Positions 4,581 to 32,234 of a stretch of 64,000 nt of DNA are shown in pieces. Source of the DNA: Actinoplanes sichuanensis (lineage in GTDB: Bacteria; Actinomycetota; Actinomycetes; Mycobacteriales; Micromonosporaceae). The stretch is taken from contig NZ_AP028461.1 of the NCBI RefSeq assembly GCF_033097365.1, positions 9,761,501-9,825,500 on the forward strand, in the 5' to 3' direction. The position numbers were made by a program, and so were the translations under genes. The number at the start of each line of letters is the position of its first letter. Within the stretch, counting starts at the first letter, position 1. The notes below the pieces were generated by a model that saw only the letters and a program-made list of their open reading frames with translations, ran no database searches and was not told where the DNA came from.

Positions 4581-6220
4581 ATCCGGCCGGTGCCGGCACC
4601 CGCCTTGACCTTGGCCGACACCGCCGCGGTGGCGTCCAGGGTCACCGCGTACGGCGCCTTGGCGAACGTGCCGGTCTGGGTGATCACCGGCTCCTCACCG
4701 CCGAAGTCGTTGCCGGAGATGTTCGCGAAGCCGTCGAGGTCGGAGTCCTCGGTGGTCCAGACCGGCAGCTTCACGTTGACGAACACGTTGTTCTCGACCA
4801 GGCACTGCGACTCCATGAGGCAGTGGATGCCGCTGGTCTTGGCGTTGCTGAACAGGTTGTTGAACAGGTGCACGGTGCCGAACCGGAGACGCGGCAGCCG
4901 GGAGGCCACGTTGTCGAACCAGTTGTGGGCGTACGTGACGTGCAGCTTGCCGGTGTCCTCGGCGGCGTTGTCGTCGCTGTGACCGAGCAGTGAGCCCTTC
5001 GAGTGGTCGTGCAGGTGGTTCCAGGAGACCGTGACCAGGTCGGTGGCGTGGGTCAGGTCGACCATGCCGTCGTAGAAGTCCTTGTCGTGGCTGGTGTCGT
5101 TGAACAGCTCGTTGTGGTCGATCCAGATGTGGTCCGACTTCTGCGCGGCGATCAGGTCGACCGGCGCCTGTGCGAACGAGATCTTCAGGTTCCGGACGAT
5201 GACGTTCGTGGCCTTCTTGATGTAGATGCCCGCGCCGGTCAGGCCGGCGTTCGCGCCGACACCCACGATCGTCTTGTTCGAGGAGACGACGACCTGGTCG
5301 GTGCCACTGCCGGTGAGGATCGTGGACAGCTGGAGGATCTTGGCGCCGTCCGAGGCGGCCTCGGTGATCAGCTGGTCCAGCGAGGTGATCTTGACAGTGG
5401 TGCCACCGGCGCCACCGGCGGTGCCCGCGCCGAAGCCGATCGGGCTGGACTCGAAACCGCCGCTGGTCGCGGTGGGCGAGGCGGTCGCCGTCGCGGAGGC
5501 GGTTGCGGTGGGTGATGCGGTCGCGGTGGGTGATGTGGGCGCGGTCGTCGCGGTCGGGGCCGCGGTCGCAGTCACGCCGGTCGTCACCGTCACGTCGTCG
5601 AACCGGGCGGTCGCGTCGTAGGTCTGCAGACCGATCCGGCCGCTACCGAACGCCGACGCGGTGCCGGACAGGACCGACGCCCCGTTCACCGCGCCGGTCA
5701 GCGTGTTTCCGCTGGTGGTCAGGCTCAGCGTGTAAACGCTTCCGGGGGTGACGGTGAGCGCCGCCTCACTGAGGACCGTCACGTTGCCGGACTTCACCGA
5801 CTCCAGCCGCACCTTGTTCGCGCCGGTCAGCGCCAGCCGGTAGAAGCTCGTCGAACTGGTCGACCGGGCCACGATCGCGGCGTATCCACCGGAGGCGACC
5901 GAGAGCGGTGCGACCTTCGCGGTGACCGTGTAGTCGGTCCAGTCGGTGGAACCGGCGAACTGCCGGGCCGGCGTCGCACCGGTCTTGCCCTGCTGGAGCA
6001 CCTTGCTGCCGTCGCTGACGATCGACCATGTGCCGCCGGACTTGCTCCAGCCGGCGGTGTCGCCGTCCTCGAAGGTGTCGGTGAATCCGGCCGCGGTGGC
6101 GGTGTCGGCGTCCGCGAAGGAGACCGAGGCCAGGCCGCCCATGCCGGCCACGACGGCGGCCATGCCGGCCGCGATGACCACCTTCCGTTTGCGGCTGCTC
6201 TTCTTCGGTGCGCTTTCCAT
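4577..6220 (-). CDS. Secreted pectate lyase (PL1) with an N-terminal beta-sandwich module
   Basis: 547 residues. Order: basic N-terminus and signal peptide (about 1-40); a laminin-G/DUF1080-like beta-sandwich (about 45-215, ending ARFDDVTVT); a Pro/Thr/Ala linker of TATASPT-type repeats; and a PL1 pectate lyase domain (about 265-547). The lyase shows WIDHNE, VSWNHLHDHSKGSLLG and RLPRLRFGTVHLFNN, the calcium-binding and catalytic-Arg motifs of parallel beta-helix pectate lyases. It should cleave polygalacturonate outside the cell. The start at 6220 is chosen for the GGAAAGGAA upstream; an ATG at 6235 is possible. Confidence 0.92.
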   Translation of the reverse strand: MESAPKKSSRKRKVVIAAGMAAVVAGMGGLASVSFADADTATAAGFTDTFEDGDTAGWSKSGGTWSIVSDGSKVLQQGKTGATPARQFAGSTDWTDYTVTAKVAPLSVASGGYAAIVARSTSSTSFYRLALTGANKVRLESVKSGNVTVLSEAALTVTPGSVYTLSLTTSGNTLTGAVNGASVLSGTASAFGSGRIGLQTYDATARFDDVTVTTGVTATAAPTATTAPTSPTATASPTATASATATASPTATSGGFESSPIGFGAGTAGGAGGTTVKITSLDQLITEAASDGAKILQLSTILTGSGTDQVVVSSNKTIVGVGANAGLTGAGIYIKKATNVIVRNLKISFAQAPVDLIAAQKSDHIWIDHNELFNDTSHDKDFYDGMVDLTHATDLVTVSWNHLHDHSKGSLLGHSDDNAAEDTGKLHVTYAHNWFDNVASRLPRLRFGTVHLFNNLFSNAKTSGIHCLMESQCLVENNVFVNVKLPVWTTEDSDLDGFANISGNDFGGEEPVITQTGTFAKAPYAVTLDATAAVSAKVKAGAGTGRI

Positions 6221-26720: not shown

Positions 26721-26876
26721 CTACACGCCGGGTCGCTGCAAGGAGTTGGGCAACTGCTCGGGCTGCGCGCACTCGGCGCACCAGTCGTTGCTGCTTCGCA
26801 GATACCACCCGAGGGCCACGCCGGCGAAGAGACTGAGCAGGCCGACGACGGCGGAGACGGTGACCGCGCCGGTCAT
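26721..26876 (-). CDS. Very small membrane protein, CxxC
   Basis: 51 residues: one transmembrane helix (about 3-25, VTVSAVVGLLSLFAGVALGWYL), then WCAECAQPEQLPNSLQ with a CxxC that could bind metal or form a disulfide. Its ATG overlaps the stop of the upstream gene (ATGA), the main reason to believe it is real. The stop lies 10 nt before the HxlR start. Function unknown. Confidence 0.6.
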   Translation of the reverse strand: MTGAVTVSAVVGLLSLFAGVALGWYLRSSNDWCAECAQPEQLPNSLQRPGV

Positions 26877-27175
26877 ACCAGCGGGCTCCGGCGGACCAGC
26901 CTCAGGCCCCGCTGATCGAGGTCGGGGGCGCTGTCGGCGCGAAACGTCACATACGGCGCGGTGAAGGTGTCGACACCGGTGCCGCGGTGGTGGTTGCTCG
27001 GCTGATAGGTGACCGTGACCGCCCGCGGAGACGCCGCCTCGATGATGCCGGCCCGCCAGCCGTCCCGATACACCCACACCGGGTCAGCCGGGCGGTAGCT
27101 CTCGGCTGGAGCGACCTCGGCCGGATCTCGATGCACCGGGGTCACGGTAGGCGTGGACGCCGTCAGGTTCGGCAT
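26873..27175 (-). CDS. Small hypothetical protein of the twin-promoter locus
   Basis: 100 residues, soluble. A disordered N-terminus is followed by a compact beta-rich core (PVWVYRDGWRAGIIEAASPRAVTVTYQPS, VDTFTAPYVTFRAD, a Tudor/SH3-like pattern by eye only). GGAGG lies 7-8 nt before the ATG. Read from promoter A (27286-27314), 110 nt upstream, and coupled to the small membrane protein. I do not recognise the family. Confidence 0.7.
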   Translation of the reverse strand: MPNLTASTPTVTPVHRDPAEVAPAESYRPADPVWVYRDGWRAGIIEAASPRAVTVTYQPSNHHRGTGVDTFTAPYVTFRADSAPDLDQRGLRLVRRSPLV

Positions 27176-27285
27176 GGAAATGCCTCCAATGGCTTGAGGC
27201 GGACTCTTGCCGGGACGCGATGCAACATCTGAGCAGGCGAAGATTTCGGCACGCTGTGTCAGCGGTCGGATCGTGTCTGTCAGCT

Positions 27286-27332
27286 ATCATGCTCGTCATC
27301 AAGTGCGTTCGCAAGGCCGTCTGCACGTGCAT
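27286..27332 (-). promoter_or_regulatory. Promoter A with palindromic operator, facing left
   Basis: On the minus strand: palindrome TGCACGTGCA (27322-27331), then -35 TTGCGA (27309-27314), a 17-bp spacer and -10 CATGAT (27286-27291). Aligned without gaps to promoter B, 36 of about 48 positions are identical, including the palindrome, GGCCTTGCG and GAGCATGATA blocks. It drives the small genes at 26873-27175 and 26721-26876. Confidence 0.85.
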
Positions 27333-27493
27333 CCGCAACGGCGAGCCGCGCGGGGGCGCCGAATGAGCGGTGTGGAGAAGACGACGGAACGGCTCGGGAA
27401 CGACGCTCCGTACCGGTTTCGTGGTTGACGATCTCCGCTCTAGGATGCGTAAAGACTGCGCCGGGCAGTCACAGAGCAGCGACAAGGAGTCAG

Positions 27494-28384
27494 GTGAGCG
27501 CGGGTTCGCAGGAGGAGGCGCCGGGTGGCGGCCCCACCGTGCTGCGCATCCTGCTCGGCTCTCAGCTTCGAAAGCTGCGGGAGTCGAGAGGGATCACCCG
27601 GGAGGCGGCCGGCTATGAGATCCGCGCCTCCGGTTCCAAGATCAGCCGCATGGAGCTCGGCCGCGTCAGCTTCAAGGAACGCGACGTCGCCGACCTGTTG
27701 ACCATGTATGGCGTGTCCGACTCCGCCGAGCGGGAAGCGCTGATCGGTCTCGCCCGTCAGGCCAACAATCCGGGTTGGTGGCAGCACTTCGGTGACGTCC
27801 TGCCGAACTGGTTCCAGGCCTATCTGGGTCTGGAGGCGGCCGCTTCGCTGATCCGGACCTACGAGATCCAGTTCGTTCCCGGTCTGCTCCAGACGCCCGA
27901 CTACGCGCGTGCCGTGATCATGCTGGGTCACGCCGGCGCCAGCTCGGAGGAGATCAACCGCCGGGTCGACGTGCGGTTGCAGCGGCAGCAGATTCTCACC
28001 CGGTCGGGTGGCCCCCAGCTGTGGGCGGTGATCGACGAGGCGGTGCTGCGGCGGCCGATCGGCGGCATCGACGTGATGCGGGCGCAGATCGAGGCGCTGA
28101 TCGAGGCGTCGAAGCTGCCCGGGGTCCGGCTCCAGATCATCCCGTTCCTGGCCGGTGGGCACGCCGCGGCCGGCGGGCCGTTCGCGATCCTGCGGTTCCC
28201 CGAGCCCGAGCTGCCCGACGTGGTCTATGTGGAGCAGCTGACCAGTGCCATCTATCTGGACAAGCGCGAAGACGTGGACCACTACGCGATGGCGATGGAG
28301 CGGGTCTGTATCGACGCCGAGCCGCCGAACCACACTCCCGAGATCCTCGGCAAGCTGCTGAACGAGGTCGGCCGCCCGGTCTAG
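27494..28384 (+). CDS. XRE-family regulator with DUF5753 domain (WhiJ-like)
   Basis: 296 residues: N-terminal helix-turn-helix (LRILLGSQLRKLRESRGITREAAGYEIRASGSKISRMELGRVSFKERDV) and C-terminal DUF5753 (about 100-290: IQFVPGLLQTPDYARAVI, RVDVRLQRQQIL, VRLQIIPFLAGGHAAAGGPF, VVYVEQ, YLDKREDVDHYAMAMERV). This is the actinobacterial class paired with DUF397 proteins, which includes the Streptomyces developmental regulator WhiJ. The GTG at 27494 has AAGGAG 4 nt upstream. It lies between promoters A and B and is the obvious candidate to bind them. Confidence 0.9.
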   Translation: MSAGSQEEAPGGGPTVLRILLGSQLRKLRESRGITREAAGYEIRASGSKISRMELGRVSFKERDVADLLTMYGVSDSAEREALIGLARQANNPGWWQHFGDVLPNWFQAYLGLEAAASLIRTYEIQFVPGLLQTPDYARAVIMLGHAGASSEEINRRVDVRLQRQQILTRSGGPQLWAVIDEAVLRRPIGGIDVMRAQIEALIEASKLPGVRLQIIPFLAGGHAAAGGPFAILRFPEPELPDVVYVEQLTSAIYLDKREDVDHYAMAMERVCIDAEPPNHTPEILGKLLNEVGRPV

Positions 28385-28424
28385 AGAAGACCGAGCGGCC
28401 GAGCGTTGTGTCGCCTGGCAGAGA

Positions 28425-28661
28425 TCAGGCGATCAGGTTGTCGAAGTCACCGTCGCGGACGCCGCCGAGGAAGGCCTCGATCTCGGCGCGGTTGTAGATC
28501 AGTGCAGCACCCTCGGGATCCCGGGAGTTACGCACAGCGACGTCGCCGTTGGGCAGGACGGCGCACTCAACGCAGTTGCCACTCGGGTTGCTGCGGCGGC
28601 TCTTCTGCCAGGTGACTCCCTGGAGTTCGCCGGCAGGCATGCCGTTGACCACGTTGGTCAT
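28425..28661 (-). CDS. DUF397 protein
   Basis: 78 residues, a complete DUF397 domain: WQKSRRSNPSGNCVECAVLPNGDVAVRNSRDPEGAALIYNRAEIEAFLGGVRDGDFDNL. Members are small partners of XRE/DUF5753 regulators. Here it is convergent with its XRE gene (41 bp apart) instead of codirectional. GGGAG lies 7 nt before the ATG. Its promoter must lie in 28662-28740, back to back with promoter B. Confidence 0.93.
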   Translation of the reverse strand: MTNVVNGMPAGELQGVTWQKSRRSNPSGNCVECAVLPNGDVAVRNSRDPEGAALIYNRAEIEAFLGGVRDGDFDNLIA

Positions 28662-28746
28662 TCCAAGCTCCCTAGATTTGCCCCCGGATCGCCCATCGAT
28701 CCGGAGTCGGTGGTGTCCGCGTGCCCAATTCAGGTCGTCGATGCAA

Positions 28747-28793
28747 ATGCACGTGCATCTGGCCTTGCGTAGTCACGGGATTCTGAGCATGAT
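28747..28793 (+). promoter_or_regulatory. Promoter B with palindromic operator, facing right
   Basis: 12-bp palindrome ATGCACGTGCAT (28747-28758), -35 TTGCGT (28765-28770), 17-bp spacer, -10 CATGAT (28788-28793). It is the sequence twin of promoter A in the opposite orientation. It drives the small genes at 28927 and 29168. The leader also holds TGTCAC-N5-GTGACA at 28818-28833/4. Confidence 0.85.
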
Positions 28794-28926
28794 AACGCAC
28801 GTACTACTCCCTAGGGGTGTCACTCAGGGTGACATCTTTAGGTGACGGGTCGGTCGCGGAGCGACAGTCTGCGGCCTCGGCGCGAGGCTCCCTGGCGGGG
28901 GCGTCCTTAGCGAGAGGTGACAAGCA

Positions 28927-29175
28927 ATGTCGATACCCAACGTCGGCCCAGAACTCCCCGAACCGGGCGACCCCGGCGTGGCCGACGGTCCGCGCTGGGG
29001 AAACTCGTTGGTTCACCGGGACGCGCCGTTCGCCGACGAGGTGTTCGCGGCGTCGACCAGGGCGACCATGGTGACGCACCGGTTCGGAGGGGTCAGGTAT
29101 GCGTTGAGCCGGCCCGGCGGGACGACCGTCCGCAGGCCGCCTGCCGAGGAGGGTGAGTCCGACGCGCGTGACTGA
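28927..29175 (+). CDS. Small hypothetical protein of the twin-promoter locus
   Basis: 82 residues, soluble, Pro/Gly rich at both ends, with a central FADEVFAASTRATMVTHRFGGVRYALSRPG segment. Not recognised. GAGAGGTGA lies 6 nt before the ATG, and promoter B is about 130 nt upstream. The stop overlaps the start of the next gene, indicating coupling. Confidence 0.65.
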   Translation: MSIPNVGPELPEPGDPGVADGPRWGNSLVHRDAPFADEVFAASTRATMVTHRFGGVRYALSRPGGTTVRRPPAEEGESDARD

Positions 29176-29530
29176 GCTCGTTCGTTGCCACCGCCGGCAG
29201 CGACCTGCCCGGCCCCCGCAGGCGCGGGGTCCACATGTCCGCGGCAACCGGCTACGGCCCAGTGGGCCGTCCTGGCCGGTCTATGAGTTCGCCGAGACGG
29301 ACTACTGCTACGGCATCGGCCCGATCCGGCTGCGCCTCGAGTGGGTCAACTGGGCGAAGCCCATTCCCCACGAGGGTGACTACTGGCTCGCCGTGCGCGG
29401 TGTCGTGATCGATCGCTTCGGGCGTGATGGTGCCGTCCGCGAGATGCTCGTCCGTGCGGCGTGTGTGCCGGTCCCGCCCGTCCCCCGGCGCCCCCGCCTG
29501 AGGGTGTTGCGTAGCAGCACACCCGTGTAG
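29168..29530 (+). CDS. Hypothetical protein with a conserved-looking aromatic core
   Basis: 120 residues from GTG 29168 (GTG 29153 is an alternative; neither spaces ideally from GAGGAGGG at 29145). A basic, Pro-rich N-terminus is followed by YEFAETDYCYGIGPIRLRLEWVNWAKPIPHEGDYWLAVRG and VVIDRFGRDGAVREMLVR, a dense aromatic/charged core that looks like a folded domain. Unknown function. Second gene of the promoter B unit; a terminator follows. Confidence 0.65.
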   Translation: MTELVRCHRRQRPARPPQARGPHVRGNRLRPSGPSWPVYEFAETDYCYGIGPIRLRLEWVNWAKPIPHEGDYWLAVRGVVIDRFGRDGAVREMLVRAACVPVPPVPRRPRLRVLRSSTPV

Positions 29531-30516: not shown

Positions 30517-32091
30517 TCAGGCGGCGGAGGCGAGGCCCCGAGAGGCGGCCGAGACGACGCGGTCACGTCCGGCGTGCTTGGCAGCGTACAGATGATCGTC
30601 CGCAGTGGACAGTAGGGCGGGCTGGGTCGGCACCGTGGCGTCGGCGCTGGTGGCGACTCCGATGCTGATGGTCACCGGCAGGCCCCGGGTGATCCCGTGC
30701 CAGTCGTGGTCGCGGACCGTACGGCGGATCGAGTCGAGCAGGGCGACGGCCCGGCCCGCCGTGGTGCCGGGCAGCACGATCAGGAACTCCTCACCACCCA
30801 TCCGGGCGGCGAATCCACCCGGGCAGGCGGCGGCCACCCCGTCGGCGAGCAGACCAGCCACCCGGACCAGGACCTGGTCGCCGACGTTGTGCGAGAGCCG
30901 GTCGTTGATCTGCTTGAAGTGGTCGAGGTCGACGAGCGCGATGGTGAGTGCCGGGTCGGACTCGATCAGGACCGGTAGCTTCTCGTCGATGTGGCGGCGG
31001 TTGTGCAGGCCGGTCAGCGGGTCGCGGCGAGCCTGCTCACGGAAACGCTCCGCCTCCTGTCGGGCCTCGACCGTCTCGAACATCGCCTGCCTGGTCCGGG
31101 CCCGCGCCTCACGCTGGAGCGAATGCTGGTCCTGGTACGCCGAGAAGAACGTCTGATGCGCGGCGAAGGCGGCCTGGTAGTCACCGCGTGCCGCGAACAG
31201 CTCGGCCTGCTCCTGGTGCATGCGGACCAGGGACTCGCCGAGGTCACGCTCGATGCACTGCTGGTGCGCCTCGTCCAGGCTGGCCTGGGCCAGGTCGAAC
31301 TTGCCGAGACCGCGCTGCGCCTGGGCCAGGGTCACCAGATACTGCGCCATGTCGTTGGCGTCGTCCCACTTGCCCTCGGCGTGCCGCTCCAGACAGAGCG
31401 CCAGGGTGCGCTCGGCCTCGGCATACCGGCCGTTGCCGATCTGGATCGAGCCGATCGTGTCGAGGTAGGCCGGCTCGAGTGTCATCTCCCACTCGTCGGC
31501 GAGCCGCAACAGGCGGTCTGCCACCTCCTCGGCGCGCTGCTGGTCGCCGGAGTCGTACTCCGCGTAGGCGTGGTTGTTGAGCAGGCACAGCAGGGCCGGG
31601 TGGCCGGCCGGCACGGCCAGCTCCTCGGCCTGCGCATATCGGATGCGAGCCGCGTCCATCGAGCCGGCCGCCCAGAAGGCGTCGGCGAGCTTGGTGCGGT
31701 GCCAGATGTGCATGTGCGTGGTGCAGTCTTCGTCGAGCAGCTCGACCGCGAGCAATGCCTGCTCCAGGCCCTGCTCGGCGTCACCGAGGTGCTGGTGGAT
31801 GTAGGCCCAGAGCATGTGCATGCGAGCCATCAGGACGCGGGCGTCGTTGGCGACCGCCCACTCGTGGACCTGCCAGATCTGCTCGGTGGCCGCGCTGATG
31901 TCGCCGAGGCGCATCCGCATGTTGGCCTGGCAGAGTCGGGCTCGCGCGATCAGCAGGGGATCGCCGAGCCGGTGAGCCGCCTCTTCCAGACGGATGGCCC
32001 GCGCCAGCTCGGCGTGGGCATCCCAGGATCGTCTGTCCTCGATGTCGAGAAGGGCAGCCGAGAGCATGTCGGCGTCGATCGGGTACTCCAT
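30517..32091 (-). CDS. TPR-repeat GGDEF diguanylate cyclase
   Basis: 524 residues, cytoplasmic. About 1-335 are TPR-like helical repeats (LARAIRLEEAAHRLGDPLL, YAEAERTLALCLERH, FDLAQASLDEAHQQC), then a coiled coil (about 310-350), then GGDEF (RDPLTGLHNRRHIDEKLPV, active site RMGGEEFLIVLPG). The GGEEF site is intact, so c-di-GMP synthesis is expected; no RxxD inhibitory site stands just upstream. GGAGG is 6 nt before ATG 32091. It could feed the exopolysaccharide locus, but only by inference. Confidence 0.92.
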   Translation of the reverse strand: MEYPIDADMLSAALLDIEDRRSWDAHAELARAIRLEEAAHRLGDPLLIARARLCQANMRMRLGDISAATEQIWQVHEWAVANDARVLMARMHMLWAYIHQHLGDAEQGLEQALLAVELLDEDCTTHMHIWHRTKLADAFWAAGSMDAARIRYAQAEELAVPAGHPALLCLLNNHAYAEYDSGDQQRAEEVADRLLRLADEWEMTLEPAYLDTIGSIQIGNGRYAEAERTLALCLERHAEGKWDDANDMAQYLVTLAQAQRGLGKFDLAQASLDEAHQQCIERDLGESLVRMHQEQAELFAARGDYQAAFAAHQTFFSAYQDQHSLQREARARTRQAMFETVEARQEAERFREQARRDPLTGLHNRRHIDEKLPVLIESDPALTIALVDLDHFKQINDRLSHNVGDQVLVRVAGLLADGVAAACPGGFAARMGGEEFLIVLPGTTAGRAVALLDSIRRTVRDHDWHGITRGLPVTISIGVATSADATVPTQPALLSTADDHLYAAKHAGRDRVVSAASRGLASAA

Positions 32092-32234
32092 CAACCGCCT
32101 CCCTCCTCCGGCGCGTGCATTTCCTCAGCGAGGCCATCGGCGTACGAAAGCCGGGGTTGAGGGAAAACGCCGGGCTCCCCGAGGCTAGCTCTGCGTGAGG
32201 AGCTGACCCCAGGGAGTACGGAGTGATCTGCGAC

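Follow-up and report, generated by a model that had tools for sequence, protein, structure and literature searches.

A conserved palindrome beside promoter-like boxes is a candidate operator of a WhiJ-like XRE/DUF397 module in Actinoplanes

The window analyzed here, a 64,000-nucleotide stretch of the Actinoplanes sichuanensis genome (NZ_AP028461.1, positions 9,761,501 to 9,825,500), contains a gene for a WhiJ-like XRE regulator, a convergent gene for its DUF397 partner and, outside this pair, two outward-facing elements in which the 10-letter palindrome TGCACGTGCA precedes promoter-like boxes. The element is a real and strongly kept regulatory element, and its twin form is a lineage variant. 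As judged from the comparison of loci, the palindrome is most likely the operator of a WhiJ-like module of the SCO3421 type, and we consider it probable that the XRE protein sets, and more likely activates, the two outward promoters through it. The recurrence of the palindrome suggests a binding site and targets for a poorly understood family of switches, and a fixed DNA word beside such regulators offers a testable binding site, candidate targets and a possible tie to cyclic di-GMP (c-di-GMP).

The twin elements and their conservation in Actinoplanes

Each element consists of TGCACGTGCA, 3 bases, GGCCTTGCG, 15 bases and GAGCATGATA, and reads outward, away from the XRE gene on the left and from the DUF397 gene on the right (Table 1). 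The initial annotation had described two inverted elements around this pair. They were found there with each coordinate shifted by one, and the three blocks were the same on both sides with 17 bp between TTGCGA/T and CATGAT, as it had stated. The left and right elements matched without gaps at 36 of 47 bases. When dinucleotide-shuffled pairs of the intergenic regions were compared, the best 47-mer match had a mean of 24.9 and a maximum of 31, and none of 2000 pairs reached 36. Since the XRE and DUF397 genes are convergent, there is a separate palindrome upstream of each. An imperfect −35-like box follows the palindrome, whose center is about 47 bp upstream of the expected start. The palindrome alone is fairly common, with 25 sites in the 12.1-Mb genome. 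A large regulon based on these 25 sites was considered and rejected, as only the two window elements combine the palindrome with the GCCTTGCG block at zero mismatches. Most genus genomes carry two full elements, in agreement with the small set that had been proposed.

The XRE protein found matches at 80–98% identity in all 59 other genus genomes searched, and the gene order 100-amino-acid (aa) gene, XRE, DUF397, 82-aa gene was kept across the genus wherever the contig reached. The 125-aa gene was less widespread (45 genus loci by profile). Each of the split regulator genes had its own palindrome upstream in 57 of 59 genus loci, and the remaining two were cut by contig ends. The elements of the window and 59 sister loci were then aligned by their best match to a template of the palindrome plus GGCCTTGCG, a choice that favors conserved palindromes; the left side of one locus (L126) and the right side of another (L074) were missing at contig ends. 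The palindrome was invariant in all 118 aligned elements (59 left, 59 right), and the −35-like and −10-like boxes were nearly so, with variable filler. The bias of the template is offset because an independent search agrees: with the long pattern at up to 2 mismatches, 67 of 67 genus genomes carried at least one copy per strand. No match to a reversed control pattern was listed across 354 genomes of the family. With a shorter 22-base pattern at up to 1 mismatch, the element was found in 59 of 60 genus genomes (the missing one, G017, was recovered by the longer pattern) and in none of 40 genomes from other families of the same order. These results bear out the earlier claim of selection on the palindrome, the hexamers and their spacing.

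The palindrome across the family and the class

When the palindrome plus promoter was sought beside XRE/DUF397 genes in related genomes, the palindrome was present across the genus, the family and the class. At up to 2 mismatches, the element pattern occurred in 284 of 354 Micromonosporaceae genomes. Outside Actinoplanes it was found in 217 of 287, as a single copy in 214 of the 217. A search with the XRE protein in 57 of these element-bearing genomes outside the genus gave 51 matches in 40 genomes at E 1e-90 or better. The first set of loci comprised 38 of these matches together with G101, which was selected because it carried the element, and one locus from another family. In 33 of the 39 family loci the palindrome lay before DUF397 in a DUF397-XRE operon, with the promoter facing away. 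The other six included one operon with the palindrome before XRE only, two convergent loci with both palindromes and one with the genes apart; no DUF397 was found in two of the 39. A locus of another genus (G383) also had the twin form. The element itself is not special to the arrangement that had been singled out; it goes with an XRE clade found over the whole class, often as a single copy at each locus.

Of the 38 palindrome-bearing loci, 21 had a GGDEF-type gene on the outward side and 15 had a relative of the 100-aa gene there; 6 loci had both. Pfam confirmed the GGDEF identity in all three cases tested, and the GGDEF core of the 21 genes was intact in 16, altered in 4 and could not be located in the chosen frame in 1. 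The targets with an altered active-site core (L255, L262, L263 and L266) may be inactive as cyclases.

Among 345 genomes of the class, 89 had a match to the XRE protein at E 1e-105. The palindrome was present in 26 of the 29 best loci (two from Micromonosporaceae) and in 11 of 20 further loci picked by family. With one more locus added (n = 50), it stood before XRE, DUF397 or both in 34 and in neither place in 16. Convergent loci elsewhere in the class had it before DUF397 only in six cases and before XRE only in three. Scanning named genomes with a 23-base pattern gave at least 119 stretches, and since the element was required, these counts describe its neighbors and not its frequency. Among the matches listed, Streptomyces accounted for 75 of 80 named stretches, and near the 119 palindromes XRE was found in 116, DUF397 in 104 and an AbaA-like HATPase in 107. 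In 93 of these 119 the regulator genes were apart on one strand, each with its own palindrome; in this second count DUF397 was not found in 11 and XRE not in 8. A TTA codon was present in 98 of the 107 AbaA-like frames listed, which run from stop to stop, so that some TTA codons may precede the start codon.

The Streptomyces loci appear to be the SCO3421-3424 cluster, from their gene order, the TTA codon and the S18 and CobW genes, which lie beside DUF397 in the one S. violaceorubidus locus. They point to this cluster because SCO3425 is given as S18, and SCO3424 is described in PMC6767563 as similar to AbaA and BldB. The window module shares the XRE clade and the palindrome with Streptomyces loci that probably represent SCO3421-SCO3423-SCO3424, as judged by gene order, the TTA codon and the S18 neighbor. 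It differs in that the target there is an AbaA-like HATPase, and XRE and DUF397 share a strand and flank the AbaA-like gene instead of converging. By score the XRE protein also belongs to the family of SCO1979 (NCBIfam NF058600, 432 bits with a curated cut-off of 350). The family name was rejected as proof of SCO1979 orthology, as gene order and neighbors fit SCO3421-3424 better; the model also matches a protein of a palindrome-less branch (N-terminus partly reconstructed) and is thus blind to subgroups.

To count which XRE proteins go with the palindrome, we used 155 proteins from loci fetched by an XRE or DUF397 match, with no rows chosen by the element. Besides the family, class and paralogue sets, they came from 15 of the 59 genus loci, 20 second genus XRE copies and 13 family matches that had been omitted earlier. 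An initial tree, in which 98 of 119 clade members had the palindrome, was discarded as biased, with 13 element-chosen rows and most second XRE copies missing. In the recount, 139 of the 155 proteins fell in the clade of the window protein, and the palindrome lay no more than 1.3 kb from 92 of these. Among the 97 clade members with a DUF397 gene within 1.5 kb it was present for 89, and among the 42 without such a neighbor for 3, some of the 42 having DUF397 and the palindrome beyond the counted stretch (e.g. L279 and L297). Outside the clade it was 1 of 16, inside a response-regulator-like coding frame. Eight clade members with DUF397 lacked the palindrome: L320, one locus of family f8 and six Streptomyces-like loci. 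Their recognition-helix region differs from that of the palindrome carriers, where it is nearly invariant. Unlike the module described here, six Streptomyces-like loci of another branch, presumed to be like SCO4441 of Scr1/Scr2 (SCO4441/4442), are without the palindrome. The DUF397-less XRE copies keep nearly the same recognition-helix region as the carriers and mostly lack the palindrome, so the palindrome follows the module and not the XRE gene alone. It belongs to the clade XRE plus DUF397, and the tie to such a module proposed at the outset was supported.

Proposed function and origin of the twin form

In the mechanism we favor, the XRE protein would bind the palindrome just upstream of the −35-like box and, once bound, would set, and more likely activate, both outward promoters. 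The two paralogous target units would respond together, and DUF397 would tune the XRE protein. By analogy, activation seems more likely than repression because in the nearest experiment, on S. venezuelae, WhiJ9 bound the intergenic region shared with the divergent gene iosA and was required for iosA activation (PMC10294661). The iosA-whiJ9-bldB9 locus resembles the window in having a WhiJ-like XRE protein with a DUF397 partner, a divergent target and a site in the shared intergenic region. It differs in its site, which is a set of direct repeats 113 bp before the start in contrast to a palindrome next to the −35-like box, and in having a single divergent target where there are two paralogous units here (PMC10294661).

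Several observations weigh against this mechanism. WhiJ9 binds direct repeats of the form CGXXCTCAAC and not TGCACGTGCA. Such repeats had 5 matches in the window, about as many as the 3.2 expected by chance, and none in either intergenic region; the nearest (28562) lies inside DUF397. The palindrome was absent within 1.3 kb of 47 of the 139 clade members, mostly DUF397-less copies, and it was absent from 18 of the 20 second genus XRE copies despite their similar recognition-helix region, and from a genus copy with 78% identity (L141). Finally, 83% of the right elements in the genus have a CACGT site close to the expected start, which would fit repression.

Repression of the outward promoters and of the XRE protein's own unit through the same operator, relieved by DUF397 or a signal as proposed for WhiJ, is a possible but doubtful explanation. 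In addition to the CACGT site, TGC recurs at 6-bp steps through the element region in the family (offsets 0, 6, 18 and 24 in >90%, offset 12 in 34%), and offsets 18 and 24 run into and beyond the −35-like box. The main site lies upstream of this box, however, and the −35 and −10 boxes are imperfect, like those of many activated promoters. In the published work, WhiJ was proposed as a repressor of development (PMC4255298) and whiJ9 transcription doubled on loss of WhiJ9, but strong iosA activation needs WhiJ9 (PMC10294661).

We gave slightly less weight to the XRE protein as the reader of the palindrome, and more to another reader, because the palindrome depends on DUF397. It is nevertheless improbable that a different protein reads the palindrome, or that second XRE copies do so in trans, with proximity reflecting only the whole module. 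The DUF397-less copies could read the palindrome in trans with their nearly unchanged recognition helix, and in some loci of family f32 the palindrome is more than 1 kb from XRE. However, the palindrome stays with the clade XRE plus DUF397 across families despite changes in gene order. At the remaining DUF397 loci of this genome it was not found, apart from one copy at 8573426 that lies within a 120-aa frame resembling a response-regulator DNA-binding domain.

It is very improbable that XRE/DUF397 is a type II toxin-antitoxin pair with the element as its autoregulatory site, as would follow from a comparative-genomics proposal (Makarova 2009 and others, cited in PMC10364602). When 14 DUF397 proteins were overexpressed in S. 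coelicolor, no clear toxicity was reported (PMC10364602). In the window the two genes converge, and neither lies downstream of the promoter-like boxes.

Under the operator model with activation, the paralogy of the first genes on the two sides suggests that the twin form is derived and that a target was duplicated together with its promoter. A single divergent promoter-operator and its target gene would have been duplicated in inverted orientation, and the DUF397-XRE operon would have been split, with each regulator gene keeping an operator. In a profile comparison, the 100-aa and 82-aa proteins aligned over 55 columns (hhalign probability 98.5%, E 2e-15), which identifies the outward first genes as paralogues rather than the unrelated sets that two outward groups might suggest.

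The targets differ by lineage. Streptomyces has an AbaA-like ATPase, Actinoplanes has small proteins of unknown function, and the target in other Micromonosporaceae is often a GGDEF protein. It is about an even call whether one ancient WhiJ-type operator-promoter stayed almost identical in sequence across the class as the driven gene was swapped between an AbaA-like ATPase, a dedicated diguanylate cyclase and a duplicated small-protein pair. If true, a WhiJ/BldB-type switch would be wired directly to c-di-GMP synthesis in Micromonosporaceae. c-di-GMP is the signal of the developmental regulator BldD. Among the papers searched, WhiJ appeared together with a diguanylate cyclase in one, a review, and TGCACGTGCA in 21, none of them on a bacterial regulator as judged by title; a published match may exist (Zhu 2020 on SCO1979, or the motifs of PMC12565409, whose subject is given as palindromes of XRE proteins).

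Further copies and genes at the locus

The genus genomes held ten further near-matches to the 22-base pattern (up to 1 mismatch), including one in the A. sichuanensis genome. Four adjoined relatives of the 82- or 125-aa gene (L129, L130, L131 and L134), and six were without such neighbors (L132, L133 and L135-L138). The palindrome can occur at targets distant from XRE, at a relative of the 82-aa gene in one genome (L134) and at one of the 125-aa gene in a different genome (L131). In L134, the element at position 5070 (G016:C1:4842769) is a third one and precedes the 82-aa-gene relative, and an XRE gene was not found within 5 kb; it possibly marks a target in trans. The second XRE copies in L497 and L498 (and L129 and L130) are each accompanied by two palindromes and a 125-aa-gene relative, with no DUF397 found nearby. 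The other 18 of the 20 second copies examined (L479-L496) had neither DUF397 nor the palindrome nearby. As their recognition-helix region is nearly unchanged, such DUF397-less copies may act on the palindrome in trans. Three genus genomes share the palindrome plus a GGCC-GTGCG block in near-identical surroundings (L132, L136 and L138; G000:C1:8640788), where neither an XRE nor a DUF397 gene was found nearby.

Table 1. Features of the XRE/DUF397 locus in window coordinates. The promoter role of the elements is proposed from spacing and conservation.
Feature	Position	Strand	Remarks
Second left gene, small protein	26721..26876	minus	one likely membrane stretch (by eye)
Left target, 100-aa protein	26873..27175	minus	no known family
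Left element	27285..27331	minus	palindrome 27322-27331
Left element boxes	27309-27314 (−35-like TTGCGA); 27286-27291 (−10-like CATGAT)		expected start ~27279
XRE regulator, HTH_31 + DUF5753	27494..28384	plus	NCBIfam NF058600 (Sco1979 family)
DUF397 (BldB/Scr2-type) partner	28425..28661	minus	convergent to XRE
Right element	28748..28794	plus	palindrome 28748-28757
Right element boxes	28765-28770 (−35-like TTGCGT); 28788-28793 (−10-like CATGAT)		expected start ~28800
Right target, 82-aa protein	28927..29175	plus	paralogue of left 100-aa protein
Second right gene, 125-aa protein	29153..29530	plus	overlaps 82-aa gene
SAM methyltransferase, PF04672	29584-30483	minus	adjoins module
TPR-GGDEF gene	30517-32094	minus	

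The XRE protein matched PF13560 (E 4.6e-15) and PF19054 (E 3.6e-60), which fits WhiJ-like XRE regulators with an N-terminal XRE-type helix-turn-helix and a C-terminal DUF5753, and the partner matched PF04149 (E 3.1e-19), which fits the DUF397 proteins BldB and Scr2. Sequence searches with the two proteins gave no solved relatives, and the predicted structure of the XRE protein had a mean predicted local distance difference test (pLDDT) score of 62, too low for a fold comparison. Searches of Pfam and NCBIfam with the 100-aa and 82-aa proteins, and of Pfam with the scanned part of the second left gene, were without a match. Relatives of the 125-aa gene occur beside other palindrome copies. In most genus loci, purC lies on one flank, and the PF04672 (S-adenosylmethionine, SAM) methyltransferase gene and the GGDEF gene lie on the other. 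In 57 of 59 genus loci the module has the TPR-GGDEF gene as a neighbor; this gene reads towards the module on the opposite strand and is thus not driven by these promoters.
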